DNA from: Candidatus Harrisonbacteria bacterium
GTDB taxonomy: Bacteria > Patescibacteriota > Minisyncoccia > UBA6257 > 02-FULL-45-10c
Assembly (NCBI GenBank): GCA_016192685.1
Contig: JACPTS010000001.1
Location: 1-33,411 of the forward strand
Reading direction: 5' to 3'
DNA length: 33,411 bases
Shown here: in pieces, positions 3,072 through 31,092 of the stretch
Position numbering within the stretch: position 1 is the stretch's first letter
Layout: every line of letters begins with the position of its first letter
Program-made: the position numbers and the translations under genes
Notes under the pieces: model-generated
Seen by the model: the letters and a program-made list of their open reading frames with translations, nothing else
What the model was told of the DNA's origin: nothing
The model's database searches: none

Positions 3072-3320
3072 TTAAATTTTATCTATATCTAAATTAAAAC
3101 GCCCATTACCATTCTTATCTTCTATAATAACCTTATCATCTTTTACTGTATTCAAAAGTCGTAATGCCTTAGCAATAACCGATTTCAAATCATTTTGTGG
3201 AATATTAAAACGAGTAGCTAATGATTTCAAATTAATCAATGCACCATTACGAACTACAATTTCAAGTTGTTCCTCCTTTTTTTCTTCAGGAGTAATTGGG
3301 GTATTTTTTTCTTCTGACAT
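3072..3320 (-). CDS. small HTH-like protein of unknown function
   Basis: The 82-aa protein has an acidic/lysine-rich N-terminal tail of ~20 residues, then a segment (about 30-56, containing SLATRFNIPQ and SVIAKALRLL) whose helix-turn-helix-like pattern may bind nucleic acid. It ends with a short acidic NGNGRF stretch. I do not recognise the family. The gene is AT-rich and uses CGT/CGA arginine codons, unlike ftsZ next door. It is first in a two-gene unit with a near-consensus promoter at 3341-3369. An antitoxin-like or phage-type regulator is conceivable, but this is inference only. Confidence 0.7.
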   Translation of the reverse strand: MSEEKNTPITPEEKKEEQLEIVVRNGALINLKSLATRFNIPQNDLKSVIAKALRLLNTVKDDKVIIEDKNGNGRFNLDIDKI

Positions 3321-3424: not shown

Positions 3425-3574
3425 ACAAAACAACCGGTATGTTTCGTAGAGAAACTACGGAGGCGCAAAAAGATTGGTTCCCGCAAAGCGGGATTTTTGC
3501 GCCGAGGCGTAGGCGCGTTCGCTCGCTGGAAGCGAACGACGCCGGTTCTCATAGAAATATACCGGTTGGTTTGT
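3425..3574 (+). repeat. structured intergenic repeat, copy A (three-way-junction fold)
   Basis: One of four related ~150-nt elements. The outer stem pairs 3426-3440 with 3559-3573 (one mismatch). Next comes GAGAA (3449-3453) with TTCTC (3546-3550). One arm has stem CTACG/CGTAG (3455-3459 with 3508-3512), an internal loop GA/GAGG, a long stem, a 7-nt 5' bulge GATTGGT and a triloop hairpin. The other arm is a stem with a bulged A and the 7-nt loop CGCTGGA (3524-3530). It sits just past the 3' end of ftsZ, between ftsZ and the AT-rich islet. I do not recognise it as a known RNA or transposon family. Confidence 0.85.
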
Positions 3575-3590
3575 AAAAATGACCGAGTGA

Positions 3591-4739
3591 CTATTTCTTT
3601 TTCTTTCTTAAAAAAGCCGGAATGTCCCAGACATCGGATTTTTTATTAAGTTCCGCTTTCGGCCTGGCTGGTTTTAATTCTTCTTCCACCGGCTCCCTTT
3701 TCACCGTTAATTCCGGTTTTTTCTCCGGCGGAGCGTTAAAAAGATTAGCCAACGCCGTACCAGAAGTTTTATAAGGCGCTCCGCTGAATCCGGTAGCTAC
3801 AATAGTCACTTTAATTTGGCCGGCTTTCATATTGCGGTCATGGTAAGCCCCGAAAATTATTTTGGCGGCCGGATCCACGGCTTCGGAAATAGTTCTCGCA
3901 ATTTCATTGATTTCATTCATTCGTAAATCCCGCGAGCCGGAAACTCCGAAAAGCACGCCTTTGGCTCCTTCAATGGAAACCTCCAAAAGCGGTGAGTTAA
4001 TTGCCTGAGCCACGGCCGTGGTGGCTCGATCCTGGCCGGAGCCAAGCCCGATGCCAACCAAGGCAGTACCGGCATTTTCCATAATTGCTTTCACGTCGGC
4101 GAAATCCACATTGACGATTCCCGGCATGGCAATAAGTTCGGCAATTCCCTGAATCGCGTAGCGCAAAATATCATCCACAATTTCAAAGGCTTTTATCAAA
4201 GTAGTGTCTTTTTCAATAACCGTAAAAATACGGTCATTAGGCACGACAATCATCGTATCCACCTTATCTTTCAATTTCACCAGCGCTTCCTGGGCAATCC
4301 GGGAACGCTGGGCGCCTTCAAAAGAAAATGGCTTGGTCACTACGGCAATAGTCAGAGCGCCGTTTTCTTTAGCTGCCTCGGCAATTACCGCGGAGGCGCC
4401 GCTGCCAGTGCCGCCCCCAAGTCCGGCGGTAATAAAAACCAAATCGGCATCCTTAATCGCTTCCACGATTTCCGCCCTGGTTTCTTCCGCGGCTTGCCGG
4501 CCGAGTTCCGGATTCATGCCGGTACCCAAACCTTTGGTCAGATTTTTGCCGATATGAATTTTAACGTCGGCATCGCAAAGCTCCAAATCCTGGGTATCCG
4601 TATTAATCGCGATAAAACCAATGCCCTTAAAAAGCTCTTTCTTCATCCGGGAAACCGCGTTGCCGCCGCCGCCGCCAACGCCGACGACTTTAATTTTTGC
4701 CATTTCATGCTTCAAATTTGAAAGGGGTTTTTTATTCAT
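3591..4739 (-). CDS. ftsZ: cell division protein FtsZ
   Basis: Tubulin-like GTPase that polymerises into the division ring at midcell. The 382-aa protein has the N-terminal glycine-rich loop (GVGGGGGNAV, about residues 20-29), the tubulin signature GGGTGSG at about 108-114, the T7-loop region (NVDFADV) and the usual C-terminal peptide DIPAFLR followed by lysines, which docks FtsA. Length and order are normal. It is last in the ybeY-ftsA-ftsZ run, 24 nt after ftsA. The ATG gives 12 residues before MAKIKVVG; that second ATG is a possible alternative start. No clear Shine-Dalgarno is present. Repeat copy A follows directly. Confidence 0.97.
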   Translation of the reverse strand: MNKKPLSNLKHEMAKIKVVGVGGGGGNAVSRMKKELFKGIGFIAINTDTQDLELCDADVKIHIGKNLTKGLGTGMNPELGRQAAEETRAEIVEAIKDADLVFITAGLGGGTGSGASAVIAEAAKENGALTIAVVTKPFSFEGAQRSRIAQEALVKLKDKVDTMIVVPNDRIFTVIEKDTTLIKAFEIVDDILRYAIQGIAELIAMPGIVNVDFADVKAIMENAGTALVGIGLGSGQDRATTAVAQAINSPLLEVSIEGAKGVLFGVSGSRDLRMNEINEIARTISEAVDPAAKIIFGAYHDRNMKAGQIKVTIVATGFSGAPYKTSGTALANLFNAPPEKKPELTVKREPVEEELKPARPKAELNKKSDVWDIPAFLRKKKK

Positions 4740-14041: not shown

Positions 14042-14187
14042 CTCGCTACCTATCTGCCTACCGGCACCGGCGTAGCCGATCTCCAGCGGATCGGCTCGCC
14101 TACGCCTCGGCGCTAAAACTTTTGCTTCGCAAAAGGCCGAGCTTTTAGCGCCTCCGTAGTTGCCGCACGACAGACAGGTAGCTCGCT
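14042..14187 (-). repeat. structured intergenic repeat, copy C (reverse orientation)
   Basis: On the minus strand this has the same layout as copies A, B and D. The outer stem (GCTACCT... with ...AGGTAGC) is followed by CGGCA/TGCCG, CTACG/CGTAG with internal loop GA/GAGG, a long stem with 7-nt bulge GCTCGGC and GAA triloop, and a second arm with loop CGCTGGA. The stem sequences differ from the other copies, but pairing is kept. It lies between the sugar transferase and the 100-aa gene, inverted relative to copy B. Confidence 0.8.
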
Positions 14188-14276: not shown

Positions 14277-14579
14277 ATGCCTGCCAAATTGACAAACCGT
14301 GAAATCGTTAAGCGCGTAAATCGATGGATCCAAAAACCAAAAACTAAAGTGCCTACTTGCTACCACAATGAATCTCATGGACGTTTGGAAGCACGATTAT
14401 GGGGTTATAAAATTCCTTACTCCTTGAAGCCAGATCCTGAACATCACGGAAAGTGGAAGCCAGACTATCGACGCGGATATTTTTATGAAAATGTCGAGGT
14501 GCTTCTCGTTTGTGCCAAATGCGATTTCAAATTGCTACCACGCAATCTCCCTCAAGCCGCTTTTAGAAAACCAGTATAA
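14277..14579 (+). CDS. orphan 100-aa basic protein in a repeat-flanked cassette
   Basis: I do not recognise this protein. It is basic and has no membrane segment. It carries a Cys at about residue 28 close to HNESHGR, and a CAKC pair near residues 78-81, so it may bind one zinc. It has its own promoter and a strong terminator, and sits between inverted copies C and B of the structured repeat. Codons such as CGT, CGA, GGA and CCA are more frequent than in flanking genes, which favour CGG, GGC and CCG; this hints at transfer. A mobile cassette gene is a reasonable inference, but no recombinase is encoded. Confidence 0.75.
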   Translation: MPAKLTNREIVKRVNRWIQKPKTKVPTCYHNESHGRLEARLWGYKIPYSLKPDPEHHGKWKPDYRRGYFYENVEVLLVCAKCDFKLLPRNLPQAAFRKPV

Positions 14580-14612: not shown

Positions 14613-14764
14613 TATAAACCACCAGTATGTTTCGTAGAGAAACTACGGAAGCGCCAAAAGATTGGTGTCCCGCCCTGCGGGACTTTTGGCGCTGAGGCGT
14701 AGCGGGCTCGCGCCGCTGGAGCGCGAGAACCGCGATTCTCATAGAAATATACTGGTGGTTTATA
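14613..14764 (+). repeat. structured intergenic repeat, copy B
   Basis: The outer stem is a perfect 16 bp (14613-14628 with 14749-14764). Inside are GAGAA/TTCTC, CTACG/CGTAG with internal loop GA/GAGG, a long stem with 7-nt bulge GATTGGT and CCT triloop, and a second arm closed by CGG/CCG (GCG/CGC in other copies) with loop CGCTGGA. It follows the terminator of the 100-aa gene and precedes the pilin gene promoter. Confidence 0.88.
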
Positions 14765-15559: not shown

Positions 15560-16024
15560 ATGCTAAAAAAAGTATTCACCAGAGGAGATCTCTTAAATCT
15601 TTTGGAAAAAGAAGCTGAAAAATACCGCCTGCAAGCTCTTGCCTCTATTGAACGCAACCGGCATATGAATGACCTTTCCGTAGAAGATCTCGCCCAGTTA
15701 AAGAAGAATCAACAATTAACGCAAAGAGTGATTAATGCCCTGCTTGTTGATTTTATCAATGTTGTAGGAACTAGCCAGTGTTGCGATTATGGTCTTAATA
15801 CCAAACAGCTGGAGTCTAAAGCAAAGTGGGTTCAGCACCACGATGATCGTCCCTGCACTGCTCGGCTCACCACTCAAGACGGGGGTCGGTGGTGCCCGAA
15901 GTGCAAACTGCATCCGGATATGCAAAGCACCTGCCTCTACCCTTATTGCCCTTCATGCGACCGCAGCTTAAAAAATATGAAATGTCCAAAATGCGGACAA
16001 ATTTTCCAACGCCCCAGCTCATAA
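15560..16024 (+). CDS. zinc-ribbon orphan protein (154 aa)
   Basis: I do not recognise this as a named family. The N-terminal ~70 residues are a charged, probably helical domain. The C-terminal half is Cys/His-rich: a CC pair near 74-75, then WCPKCKLH, YCPSC and KCPKCGQIF, enough for two zinc ribbons (about residues 111-148). One of the few recognisable Shine-Dalgarno sequences in the window (AAAGGGG) lies about 6 nt before the ATG. The stop codon falls inside the loop of the terminator hairpin. A nucleic-acid-binding role is plausible for such ribbons but is inference. Confidence 0.78.
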   Translation: MLKKVFTRGDLLNLLEKEAEKYRLQALASIERNRHMNDLSVEDLAQLKKNQQLTQRVINALLVDFINVVGTSQCCDYGLNTKQLESKAKWVQHHDDRPCTARLTTQDGGRWCPKCKLHPDMQSTCLYPYCPSCDRSLKNMKCPKCGQIFQRPSS

Positions 16025-16046: not shown

Positions 16047-18389
16047 TCACGTTCCATGGCATTTCTTGAACTTCTTTCCACTTCCACATGAGCAAGGATC
16101 GTTGCGGCCAACTTTTTTGTCTTGAAACTTGGAACTTGAAGCTTGAAACATATGATTATGTTTTGTGTTTAATGCTTCCTGCTTCATGCTCAATGTTTCA
16201 GGTTTCATGTTTAATGCCTCATGTTCTTTAATCCATTTCTCAAACTCCGCCAGCAATTGCTTAAACATCAAACTTCCTTCCCGGCGATATTCCACCAGCG
16301 GCTCATGCTGACCGTAGGCGCGCAAACGGACTGATTCCCGAAGCGCTTCCATGCTTTCCAGATGATTCATCCATAATAAATCCAGCATGGATAAAACTTG
16401 CGGCGCGGTATTTTCTTCCAGCATCTTCTGCCGTTTTTCATAAATCGTCAGCCGCTGTTTATTTAAAATATCATCATATTCCAGCAAATGCTTCCGGGCG
16501 TCAAAATTAAATCCCTCCACCCGCGATTGCGCCTGCGATACCGCTTTAGAAACCAAGCCAGATTCAATCGGCATATCTTCCGGCACATCCAACGTTTCCA
16601 TCAAACTTTTAATCCGGTCGCCGCCAAAAATCCGCATTAAATCATCTTCCAACGAAAGGAAAAATTGGGACGAGCCGGGGTCGCCTTGCCGGCCGGAACG
16701 GCCGCGCAGCTGATTATCAATACGCCGCGCGTCATGCCTCTCCGTGCCAATCACATGCAATCCTCCTAAATCTTTCACTTTTTCGCTTTCTATTATATTT
16801 GGGGGGTTGCCGCCAAGGATAATGTCCACGCCCCGTCCTGCCATATTGGTAGCGACAGTTACTGTTCCGGTTTTGCCGGCTTGAGCAATAATCGCGCCTT
16901 CCCGCTCATTATTTTTAGCATTTAAAATTTCGTGCCGCACGCCTTCCCGATTTAAATAAGCTGATAAGGTTTCATTTTTTTCAATAGAAATCGTGCCGAT
17001 TAAAACCGGCTGGCCTTTGGTCTGCCGTTCTTTTATATCTTTGGCAACCGCCCGCAATTTGGCATCAGCGGTTTTATAAATTACATCCGGCAAATTTTCC
17101 CGCATTACCGGCTTATTAGTGGGAATCGTTATTACTTGAAGCTTATAAACTTTATCAAATTCTTCCGCGGAAGTCTGCGCCGTGCCGGTCATGCCGGCCA
17201 ATTTTTTATAAAGCCGGAAATAATTTTGAATGGTAATCTGGGCGTAAGTCCGGGATTCCTGCTGAACCCGCACTCCTTCTTTGGCTTCAATCGCCTGATG
17301 AAGCCCGCCGGAATACCGGCGGCCGAGCATCAAGCGGCCGGTATTCTGGTCAACAATAATAATCTCGTTATTTTTTACCACATAATCTTTATCCATTTTA
17401 AAAAGCGCCTGCGCTTTCAAGCTCTCTTCCAGATAATGGGTCAGCCGCAGATTTTCCGGAGCATAAATATTTTTAATTTTCAGCGCTTTTTCCACTTTAT
17501 CAATTCCGGATTCTAAAATATCCACCGAATGGAATTTTTCATCCACCAAATAATCCTCATCTTTTATAAGAACCGCCACTAATTTTGAAAATAAGCGATA
17601 ATAATCGCTGGATTCGGAATCCGGAGCCGAAATAATAAGCGGCGTCCGTGCTTCGTCAATTAAAATGCTGTCAATTTCATCTACGATAGCAAAATTGTGC
17701 CCCCTTGACTGGACTTGCTGATCTTTAGAATAAACCAAGTTGTCGCGCAAATAATCAAATCCAAATTCATGGTTGGTGCCATAAGTAATATCCGCTTTGT
17801 AAGCTTCCCGCCGGGAAATCGGGCGCAGATATTCGTCTTGCACCAAAAAACTGCCGGTGGCATCTCTTTCTTTATCCAAAAGCTGGTCGGCATTTTTAGA
17901 AATATAACTGGGGTCATAAATTAAAGCTCCTTCATGCACCAAACAAGAAACAGATAATCCCAACGCCTGATAAATCTGTCCCATCCAAACAGTATCGCGT
18001 TTTGCCAAATATTCATTCACGGTTACCACGTGCACTCCCTCCCCAACCAAAGCATTCAAATAAACCGGGGCAGTGGCGGCAAGCGTTTTGCCTTCGCCGG
18101 TAGCCATCTCGGCAATTTTACCTTCGTGAAGCGCCATGCCGCCCATTAGCTGAACGTCAAAATGCCGCTGGCCGAGCGTCCGTTTGGCCGCTTCTCGAAC
18201 CAAAGCAAAAGCGCGCGGCAAAGCCTCTTCAAGTTTCAATTTAAGGTCTTGCGATGACTTTAATTTATTACTTTCCTCTTTTAATGCTTCGTCGCTTAAC
18301 GCCGAAACCTCCTTTTCCAATGCGTTTATCTCCTCTACTCGCTTTTTTAAATTTTTGGTCGGGTCAAAAAGAAAATTTAAGAATTTCAT
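16047..18389 (-). CDS. secA: preprotein translocase ATPase SecA (short form)
   Basis: Motor ATPase that pushes preproteins through SecYEG. The 780-aa protein has Walker A ATGEGKT, the DEAD-type VDEIDSILIDEART, the helicase region MAGRGVDI and the C-terminal zinc motif CSCGSGKKFKKCHG. Compared with E. coli SecA (901 aa) there are two notable changes. About 40 residues are inserted in nucleotide-binding domain 1 between LSVSCLVHEG and the DITYGTNHEFGFDYLRD motif. About 95-100 residues, the helical wing domain, are missing near residue 660, where the two-helix finger (LDLLWMNHL) follows the scaffold almost directly. The linker before the zinc motif is built of 7-nt repeats. It ends in TGA. Confidence 0.96.
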   Translation of the reverse strand: MKFLNFLFDPTKNLKKRVEEINALEKEVSALSDEALKEESNKLKSSQDLKLKLEEALPRAFALVREAAKRTLGQRHFDVQLMGGMALHEGKIAEMATGEGKTLAATAPVYLNALVGEGVHVVTVNEYLAKRDTVWMGQIYQALGLSVSCLVHEGALIYDPSYISKNADQLLDKERDATGSFLVQDEYLRPISRREAYKADITYGTNHEFGFDYLRDNLVYSKDQQVQSRGHNFAIVDEIDSILIDEARTPLIISAPDSESSDYYRLFSKLVAVLIKDEDYLVDEKFHSVDILESGIDKVEKALKIKNIYAPENLRLTHYLEESLKAQALFKMDKDYVVKNNEIIIVDQNTGRLMLGRRYSGGLHQAIEAKEGVRVQQESRTYAQITIQNYFRLYKKLAGMTGTAQTSAEEFDKVYKLQVITIPTNKPVMRENLPDVIYKTADAKLRAVAKDIKERQTKGQPVLIGTISIEKNETLSAYLNREGVRHEILNAKNNEREGAIIAQAGKTGTVTVATNMAGRGVDIILGGNPPNIIESEKVKDLGGLHVIGTERHDARRIDNQLRGRSGRQGDPGSSQFFLSLEDDLMRIFGGDRIKSLMETLDVPEDMPIESGLVSKAVSQAQSRVEGFNFDARKHLLEYDDILNKQRLTIYEKRQKMLEENTAPQVLSMLDLLWMNHLESMEALRESVRLRAYGQHEPLVEYRREGSLMFKQLLAEFEKWIKEHEALNMKPETLSMKQEALNTKHNHMFQASSSKFQDKKVGRNDPCSCGSGKKFKKCHGT
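16121..16235 (+). repeat. degenerate heptanucleotide repeat array in the secA C-terminal linker
   Basis: Read on the minus strand, about fifteen consecutive 7-nt units such as CATGAGG, CATTAAA, CATGAAA, CCTGAAA, CATGAAG, then TTTCAAG, CTTCAAG, TTCCAAG. They encode the linker between the SecA core and its zinc-binding tail (NMKPETLSMKQEALNTK...). Two sub-arrays with different unit sequence can be told apart. Confidence 0.75.
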
Positions 18390-18402: not shown

Positions 18403-18550
18403 AGGCTCTATTTGTTTGCCGTGCGGCAACTACGGAGCTCCGAAATGCTTGGCTTTTTCGCGTAGCGAAAAAATTTCGGAGCGAGGCGTAGGCGCGGTCG
18501 CCCGCAGGAGGCGACCGACGCCGGTGCCGATAGGCAAATAAATAGAGCTT
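18403..18550 (+). repeat. structured intergenic repeat, copy D (hpf-secA gap)
   Basis: The outer stem pairs 18403-18420 with 18533-18550. Inside are CGGCA/TGCCG (18424-18428 with 18525-18529), CTACG/CGTAG with loop GA/GAGG, a long stem CTCCGAAAT/ATTTCGGAG with bulge GCTTGGC and GTA triloop, and a second arm with loop CGCAGGA. It begins 2 nt from the hpf stop and fills the space upstream of secA, so it is probably within the hpf-secA transcript. Confidence 0.85.
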
Positions 18551-18552
18551 AT

Positions 18553-18873
18553 TTAATGATCAGCCGATTTTTCCTTAACTTTAAGTAAATCATTTTTCAG
18601 GCGATCCTTTAATTTCTCAATCGCGGCCTGCATTTCCTCGTTAATTTCCTCAATCCGTAAAACCTTTTGCGGCAAATCCAAATTAGCTTCGGCATACCAA
18701 ACCATTCCCTTATTATGATGCTTGGTATTTTTGGCGATTTCCACCCGCAAAAGCAATTCCCGATTAGTTTCCCACTTGGCCAAAAACTTTTCTAAACTGT
18801 TAAATTTATCCTCAATTAGTTTCTGTAAAGATGGCGTAAGTTCAAAACCCGTAGCCTTAATTTGAAGTTTCAT
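18553..18873 (-). CDS. hpf: ribosome hibernation-promoting factor (short HPF/YfiA type)
   Basis: Binds the 30S decoding region and silences ribosomes under low-growth conditions. The 106-aa protein matches the short form: starting MKLQIKATGFELTPSLQKLI, with a central strand region (LLRVEIAKNTKHHNKG-MVWYAEANLDLP) and a C-terminal helix (EEMQAAIEKLKDRLKNDL), the usual beta-alpha-beta-beta-beta-alpha order. No long-form C-terminal dimerisation domain is present. The gene is preceded by an unusual two-promoter, two-terminator leader and followed by repeat copy D and secA. An intrinsic terminator only 29 nt before its ATG suggests that expression depends on read-through. Confidence 0.94.
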   Translation of the reverse strand: MKLQIKATGFELTPSLQKLIEDKFNSLEKFLAKWETNRELLLRVEIAKNTKHHNKGMVWYAEANLDLPQKVLRIEEINEEMQAAIEKLKDRLKNDLLKVKEKSADH

Positions 18874-29943: not shown

Positions 29944-31092
29944 TCAAATCCGGCCTTGTTTTATTTTCTCCCTGATTTTTTCCACAAAAGTGTTGAAAAA
30001 ATAAAGATTGTGGAAGGTGAGCAGCTTAAGCGGCGTAATTTCATTGGCACGCAAAAGATGGCAAAGATAATTTCGTTTATAAACTTGGCAAACCGGACAG
30101 CCGCAGTTTTTATCAAGCGCGCCCTTATCCTTCAAAAAAATAGTTTTCCGAAGATCCAGCCGGCCGAAACTAGTAAAGGCAATCCCCCGCCGGCCGTAGT
30201 GGGTTGGCACAGTGCAGTCAAAAGTATCAATGCCGGCTTTTATGATATTTTCCATATCTTCCAGATAGCCGATGCCTAAAAGGTGCCGCGGCTTTTTCTC
30301 ATCCAGATACGGAACAGTCCAATCCAAAATTTTATTCATAATTTCCTTGTTTTCCCCCAAATCGCCGCCGATTCCAAAACCGGGGAAATCCAGAGAATTA
30401 ATGAATTCCGCGCCTTCCCGGCGTAAATCTTTAAATTTAGAACCCTGCACAATGCCAAAAAGCGCTTGCCTGGTTTTCTGCGCCTTAACGCAAATTTTTG
30501 CCCATTTATGAGTTCGCTTCATTGATTCTTTGACGTATTCATAAGTGGAGAACGGCGGCGTGCATTCATCAAAAGCAAAAATAATATCCGCCCCAAGCGC
30601 TTCCTGTATCCGGATTGATTCTTTTGGCCCGATAAAAATCTCTTTGCCGTCCAGCGGCGACCGGAAATGCACTCCCTCGCTGGTTATCTTAATCTGCTTA
30701 GGCTGAGATTTTGCCTCAATCGCTTTTTCAATTTTAGTCTCGCCGGGAAAATATTTTATAACCTTTCCGACACCAAGATCGTGGCCGAATCCCAGACTGA
30801 AAACCTGAAATCCTCCGGAATCAGTCATTAGCGGCTTCGGCCAGTTCATAAATTTGTGGAGCCCGCCGGCCGATTTTACAATTTTTTCTCCCGGCTTTAA
30901 ATGGAGATGGAAAGTATTGGAAATTAAAATCTGGCTTCCGGCCATTGAAACCTCTTCGCTAGTAAGCGTTTTTACTACCGCTTGAGTGGCGACGGTTACG
31001 AGCGCCGGCGTTTCCACCTCGCCGTGCGCTGTTTTTAAAATTCCCAACCGCGCCCGGCTTTTTTTGGATTTTTTTAGAATTTTAAATTCCAT
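29944..31092 (-). CDS. tgt: tRNA-guanine(34) transglycosylase
   Basis: Swaps G34 of GUN-anticodon tRNAs for a deazaguanine base. The 382-aa protein has the catalytic aspartates (Asp91 in MTDSGGFQVF and Asp292 in DTFDCTVPTHYGRRG) and the zinc site Cys330, Cys332, Cys335, His361. Two oddities appear. About 25-30 residues are inserted after FQVFSL (around 101-135). The pocket loop, GGLAVGE in typical preQ1-using enzymes, is shortened to GGDLGE (242-247). With a DUF2419 hydrolase next door and no preQ1 genes in view, queuine may be the substrate. Its ATG overlaps the stop of the GT-C gene by one base, so it is translationally coupled. Confidence 0.95.
   Translation of the reverse strand: MEFKILKKSKKSRARLGILKTAHGEVETPALVTVATQAVVKTLTSEEVSMAGSQILISNTFHLHLKPGEKIVKSAGGLHKFMNWPKPLMTDSGGFQVFSLGFGHDLGVGKVIKYFPGETKIEKAIEAKSQPKQIKITSEGVHFRSPLDGKEIFIGPKESIRIQEALGADIIFAFDECTPPFSTYEYVKESMKRTHKWAKICVKAQKTRQALFGIVQGSKFKDLRREGAEFINSLDFPGFGIGGDLGENKEIMNKILDWTVPYLDEKKPRHLLGIGYLEDMENIIKAGIDTFDCTVPTHYGRRGIAFTSFGRLDLRKTIFLKDKGALDKNCGCPVCQVYKRNYLCHLLRANEITPLKLLTFHNLYFFNTFVEKIREKIKQGRI

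Follow-up and report, generated by a model that had tools for sequence, protein, structure and literature searches.

REP sequences are moved by RAYTs, and the attC sites of integrons are folded DNA strands with covarying stems and conserved extrahelical or unpaired bases. Gene-invading palindromic elements were previously known from Rickettsia, where the Rickettsia palindromic elements (RPEs) are about 150 bp long, palindromic, present in many copies and inserted in frame in unrelated metabolic genes (PMC10969869). Here we analysed a stretch of 33,411 nucleotides (the window) from a Candidatus Harrisonbacteria bacterium, a host of the CPR type, as had been judged beforehand from the sequence. 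Four repeats in the window are very probably copies of a non-autonomous, mobile, palindromic selfish element of about 150 bp, which resembles the RPEs in its action, with no relatedness to them implied. As far as we searched, the family was previously undescribed, and among open-licence papers dealing with MITEs or palindromic repeats of Patescibacteria/Parcubacteria we found none that describes it.

An earlier note on this DNA had reported four copies with one common fold, and reading of the sequence together with folding bore out both the fold and the boundaries (Table 1). The copies share an outer stem (P1), an inner stem and a three-way junction, with a 7-nt bulge GMTYGGY and a heptaloop CGCWGGA. 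The unpaired parts singled out in that note (the 7-nt bulge, the triloop, the bulged A and the heptaloop) proved to be real and conserved; constant features of the family are the bulge, the CGCWGGA loop, the GA that follows arm P2 and, in arm P3, the bulged A. Both reported variants of the inner stem exist; as a detail of labelling, GAGAA/TTCTC belongs to copies A and C and CGGCA/TGCCG to copies B and D. The stem CTACG/CGTAG is invariant in 15 aligned copies from the same genome (5/5 pairs) but varies in other taxa. Copy A is flanked by an ftsZ-like gene (3591-4739, minus strand) and an 82-aa ORF (3072-3320, minus strand), and copy B comes immediately after a sugar-transferase gene (gene end 14034). 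Copy D has an hpf-like ORF (18553-18873, minus strand) and a secA-like gene (16047-18389, minus strand) as neighbours, and its outer stem abuts a stop codon. We also noticed small ORFs with cysteine-pair motifs and without a Pfam match beside element copies (14277-14579 and 15560-16024 in the window).

Table 1. Element copies in the window and the parts of copy C
Feature	Position	Strand	Basis and details
Copy C, whole unit (outer stem P1 + core)	14613..14764	+	covariance-model match C1:14623-14752, 139 bits; outer stem by folding
Copy C, P1 5' arm TATAAACCACCAGTATGTTTC	14613..14633	+	partner 14744-14764; sequence variable between copies, pairing kept, recurrent G.T
Copy C, inner stem, 5' side GAGAA	14637..14641	+	partner TTCTC 14736-14740
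Copy C, P2a, CTACG	14643..14647	+	partner CGTAG 14698-14702; followed by internal loop GA / GAGG
Copy C, arm P2	14650..14693	+	10-bp stem; 7-nt bulge GATTGGT 14660-14666; distal stem, triloop 14674-14676
Copy C, arm P3	14702..14733	+	conserved heptaloop CGCTGGA 14714-14720; bulged A on 3' side
Copy C, P1 3' arm	14744..14764	+	folding
Copy A	3425..3574	+	covariance-model match C1:3435-3562, 135.4 bits
Copy B	14042..14187	-	covariance-model match C1:14050-14179 (-), 140.6 bits
Copy D	18403..18550	+	covariance-model match C1:18410-18541, 135.9 bits

The folding energy of copy C is -53.1 kcal/mol with DNA parameters (z = -11.5) and -86.2 kcal/mol with RNA parameters (z = -9.6), and in neither case was any of 200 shuffled sequences as stable. 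When the 15 copies from the same genome were aligned, paired cells amounted to 97.4 % against 72.4 % in shuffles and two-sided changes were present in 35 of the 47 pairs; none of 500 shuffles reached the observed value in any measure. In the alignment of 59 copies from many lineages, all 47 pairs display two-sided (compensatory) changes and paired cells make up 92.9 % compared with 56.8 % in shuffles, but these pairing figures lean towards structure because the alignment was fitted to the covariance model. The conserved loops with covarying stems described in the earlier note thus hold, and covariation rose with the number of copies instead of being lost. The absence of an Rfam match was also confirmed at both gathering and permissive thresholds (best weak match E = 0.89, 22 of 54 bits), and neither a known transposon end nor an Rfam family was found among Rfam and the transposon systems tested.

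The outer stem contains 106 G.T pairs against 8 A.C pairs, which indicates that the folding strand is the one read in the earlier note. This folded strand could be either RNA or single-stranded DNA, as originally suggested. In the arms, G.T (~1.5 %) and A.C (~0.8 %) are both rare; so few G.T pairs would be low for a structural RNA and may rather suit folding at the DNA level or hairpin-templated repair of the arms. The local GC skew in element orientation is negative at 94 of 139 loci, so the copies favour one replication strand, and in the window's own genome the elements change strand around 310-326 kb, with dnaA (285 kb) not far away. Median distances to genes are 44-55 nt for stop codons versus 85-136 nt for starts.

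The rest of the genome and related CPR genomes, which had been proposed as the place to look for further copies, were searched with a covariance model built from the 15 copies of the own genome. This genome (G000; 724,852 bp, 99.94 % complete) contains 31 copies, including a divergent one at 60.9 bits. Matches were found in 77 of 151 relatives, with the highest density in the own family, and these counts are lower bounds since few candidates were scored per genome. At least 15 of 380 genomes had a match in a phylum-wide sample. A wider scan, in which a consensus pattern was run over 85,000 named species and followed by the covariance-model filter, recovered Colwell-, Lipton-, Wolfe-, Harrison-, Jorgensen-, Azam-, Kerfeld-, Brenner-, Kaiser- and Peregrinibacteria as well as three contigs of Omnitrophota, one of them weak. 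No pattern hit tested from the remaining phyla passed the model. The distribution is patchy, with copies scattered over many lineages of Patescibacteria and also present in Omnitrophota. Phage and plasmid records gave no match to the element, and five viral contigs fitting the consensus pattern all failed the covariance model (0/5).

Several genomes carry traces of recent movement, in the form of near-identical copies (96-99 %) set in different flanks. Two copies in G022, which lie in unrelated flanks and in opposite orientation, share 98.7 % identity across 151 bp, and the unit common to both comprises the complete outer stem and the three-way-junction core. Pairs or groups with 93-99 % identity are located at different places in G144, G001 and G040, and further near-identical cores occupy separate places in G002. 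At orthologous loci of species from the same genus, a copy of G040 is absent from G059 and two copies of G002 are absent from G014. Presence/absence together with the near-identical pairs indicates a mobile element and not a fixed RNA gene. We therefore consider it very improbable that the repeats represent a functional non-coding or cis-acting RNA (a 3'-UTR element, bidirectional terminator or regulator) that was duplicated and kept by selection. Such an RNA would agree with the strong RNA fold, with stop codons lying nearer than starts, with the A/T tracts that end some outer stems and with P1 tolerating G.T, not A.C, on one strand, but not with non-orthologous positions, presence/absence between sister species, in-frame copies on either strand of mnmA, iscS and tgt, or the low share of G.U in the arms.

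The copy in mnmA of the own genome is 96.2 % identical to a copy located elsewhere in G005, a member of another genus, while the two MnmA proteins share only 67 %, which points to transfer of the element between genera. In G001 the core is inverted within one and the same flank, as the palindromic nature of the element permits, and a number of copies sit within the stem of an older copy that has lost its arms. Near-identical cores sometimes have quite different outer stems, a situation unexplained by simple copy-and-paste; the two arms of the outer stem change together even between such cores. The idea that the outer stem is a pre-existing hairpin serving as target was unsupported, as at one clean empty site the outer stem had arrived with the insert. 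No consistent target-site duplication was observed in the flanks of near-identical pairs or at filled and empty loci.

Regarding the mobilising enzyme, a REP-like or IS200-IS605-derived MITE, in which a Y1 (HUH) transposase would mobilise a foldback element in trans, would fit the folded palindrome, the lack of an obvious target duplication and the ssDNA-type hairpin with triloop and bulge, and Y1 proteins (mostly 230-270 aa) are present in 39 of the 151 relatives. However, this explanation is unlikely, as the own genome has no match to the Y1 family PF01797 despite its 31 copies, Y1 was not found in the recently active G001, G040 and G144, and co-occurrence is absent (22/77 element-positive vs 17/74 element-negative genomes, Fisher p = 0.46). 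Moreover, the folding strand is the C-rich strand, the reverse of the expectation for insertion into the lagging-strand template. Less probable still is an RNA-mediated retro-element, with a host or DGR-type reverse transcriptase copying the folded transcript: 6 of the 12 element-rich genomes, the own one among them, have reverse transcriptase (RVT_1) matches, and G.U is tolerated in P1 on the folding strand, but recent copies exist in G022 (100 % complete) and G144 (97 %), where RVT_1 was not matched. The RVT_1 gene of the own genome (G000:C1:249686-250297), possibly of the diversity-generating kind, had no tie to the element. TnpB-type proteins were found in 0 of the 12 element-rich genomes. 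None of the three, Y1 transposase, TnpB or reverse transcriptase, tracks the element. A partner gene between close-set copies was also considered and rejected, as the intervening genes are ordinary or unrelated.

The repeats had been described as intergenic, which is true for many copies, but others lie in frame within conserved, even essential, genes of the own genome and of relatives. Among ~135 examined copies, 15 are inside protein genes and every one of them is in frame and open, with no frame-breaking case. They occupy five of the six frames on both strands, whereas any single frame is open in just 16-44 % of the copies outside genes. Three of them belong to the own genome (phosphomannomutase-like, mnmA and cysteine desulfurase genes) and the others were found in mnmA (four genera), cysteine desulfurase, tgt (two), a membrane glycosyltransferase-like gene, parB and comF of relatives. 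The identity of the host genes was derived from family matches (MnmA, NifS/IscS, Tgt, phosphomannomutase, ParB, ComF), and three more candidates were dropped, each being a gap between two different genes. An intron-like element, removed from the mRNA or bypassed so that the protein is unchanged, might be suspected from the housekeeping genes that carry it and from its elaborate conserved fold. This is extremely unlikely, given that 15/15 in-gene copies are open against the per-frame share of intergenic ones and that genes carry the element on both strands, an arrangement incompatible with a splicing RNA.

Compared with solved structures, a short loop of 9 residues in MnmA is replaced by 57 residues, and the cysteine desulfurase (IscS) has ~50 residues where the loop has 10. 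An AlphaFold model of MnmA with the insert was set aside (mean pLDDT 49.9, five sequences only). Compared between genera, the copies in mnmA are only 51-78 % alike and both orientations are represented, so this loop has most likely been invaded more than once, although they may also stem from a single old insertion followed by divergence and inversion. That genes tolerate the copies might alternatively reflect selection for a function. In the mnmA gene of L035 (904-2313), a second extra block, STRSSATADSLVLARFADRGFAKTIGPGKAAARVS, is present besides the element at residues ~140-195 and resembles another inserted repeat. The tgt gene of the window (29944-31092) has, by eye, ~25 extra residues in the loop that holds an in-frame element in relatives L061 and L204, possibly a decayed copy.

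Other palindromic families were met during the search. A shorter sister family agrees with the element in the inner stem and in the arrangement of two arms (GGAACATCTCGGAGGCGGC..GCGCCG..GCAAATTTTTACGGAAGTAAAAATTATGCTGTTTCC) but has no 7-nt bulge; it was seen in G002 (L261:14592-14696) and similarly in G011, G014, G015 and G016, with several copies per genome. A near-perfect palindrome of 45-52 bp is located in G040 (L260:6254-6305) and at about ten places in G059. One intergenic site is occupied by three palindromic families, namely the element in G002, the sister family in G015 and a GTCATTGCGAGCGAAGCGAAGCAATC-type repeat in G011 (L305, G011:C11:3700-4600). In G002 (L254/L255) and G015 (L242), copies are part of a larger repeated structure (GCTGCGCAGCCGAGCGGGC ... 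CCGCTGGGATGAGCGAAACGGC), with a tandem 866-bp duplication in G015.

For the selfish element that we favour, we suppose that an enzyme supplied in trans would recognise the folded single strand via the 7-nt bulge, the heptaloop and the junction, and would copy or insert this strand. Selection would then act on the pairing and on those loops that the enzyme recognises, leaving the stem sequence free to drift by compensatory or hairpin-templated change, and the surviving copies would be those in intergenic gaps or those frame-open within surface loops of proteins. More tentatively, and with some doubt, the family may represent a new class of mobile elements, in which the selected unit is a folded single strand with loops read by an enzyme system unlike the usual transposases, the outer stem is either rebuilt or templates itself, and new protein segments arise recurrently across Patescibacteria via loops of essential enzymes. 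That Rickettsia and the CPR radiation, whose genomes are reduced, have this habit in common suggests repeated acquisition of such elements by reduced genomes. The family also explains odd insertions in CPR housekeeping proteins, otherwise readable as lineage-specific domains. The conserved fold and the recently active genomes without a usual transposase provide a handle on the long-standing question of how such elements move.

With the RPEs the element shares dispersed palindromic copies of ~150 bp in small genomes, both intergenic and in frame in unrelated housekeeping genes. Its hosts are Patescibacteria and Omnitrophota, and its fold is a three-way junction in which the bulge and the heptaloop are conserved and the stems diverge. 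Each RPE family encodes one conserved peptide, whereas the element uses five of six frames on both strands; we do not file it as an RPE because this single-peptide feature is missing and the host phylum is another. REP/BIME sequences with RAYT (Y1) are likewise short, dispersed, mostly intergenic foldback DNA with conserved unpaired features, but the fold of the element is much larger than a simple hairpin, and the absence of RAYT (no Y1 in the own genome) and the in-frame gene copies argue against a REP. Classical MITEs are also small, non-autonomous and mobile with inverted-repeat ends, but here the outer inverted repeat differs from copy to copy, which sets the element apart from them, and no parent IS was found. 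HEARO and omega RNAs and TnpB-IscB elements also involve structured sequences of ~150 nt that mobile elements spread, from which the element differs in having no Rfam match and no TnpB-type protein in the 12 element-rich genomes. Unlike integron attC sites, the copies form no cassette arrays, are spread chromosome-wide and have motifs that by eye do not resemble R boxes, but the element has in common with attC the covarying stems and the conserved unpaired bases.
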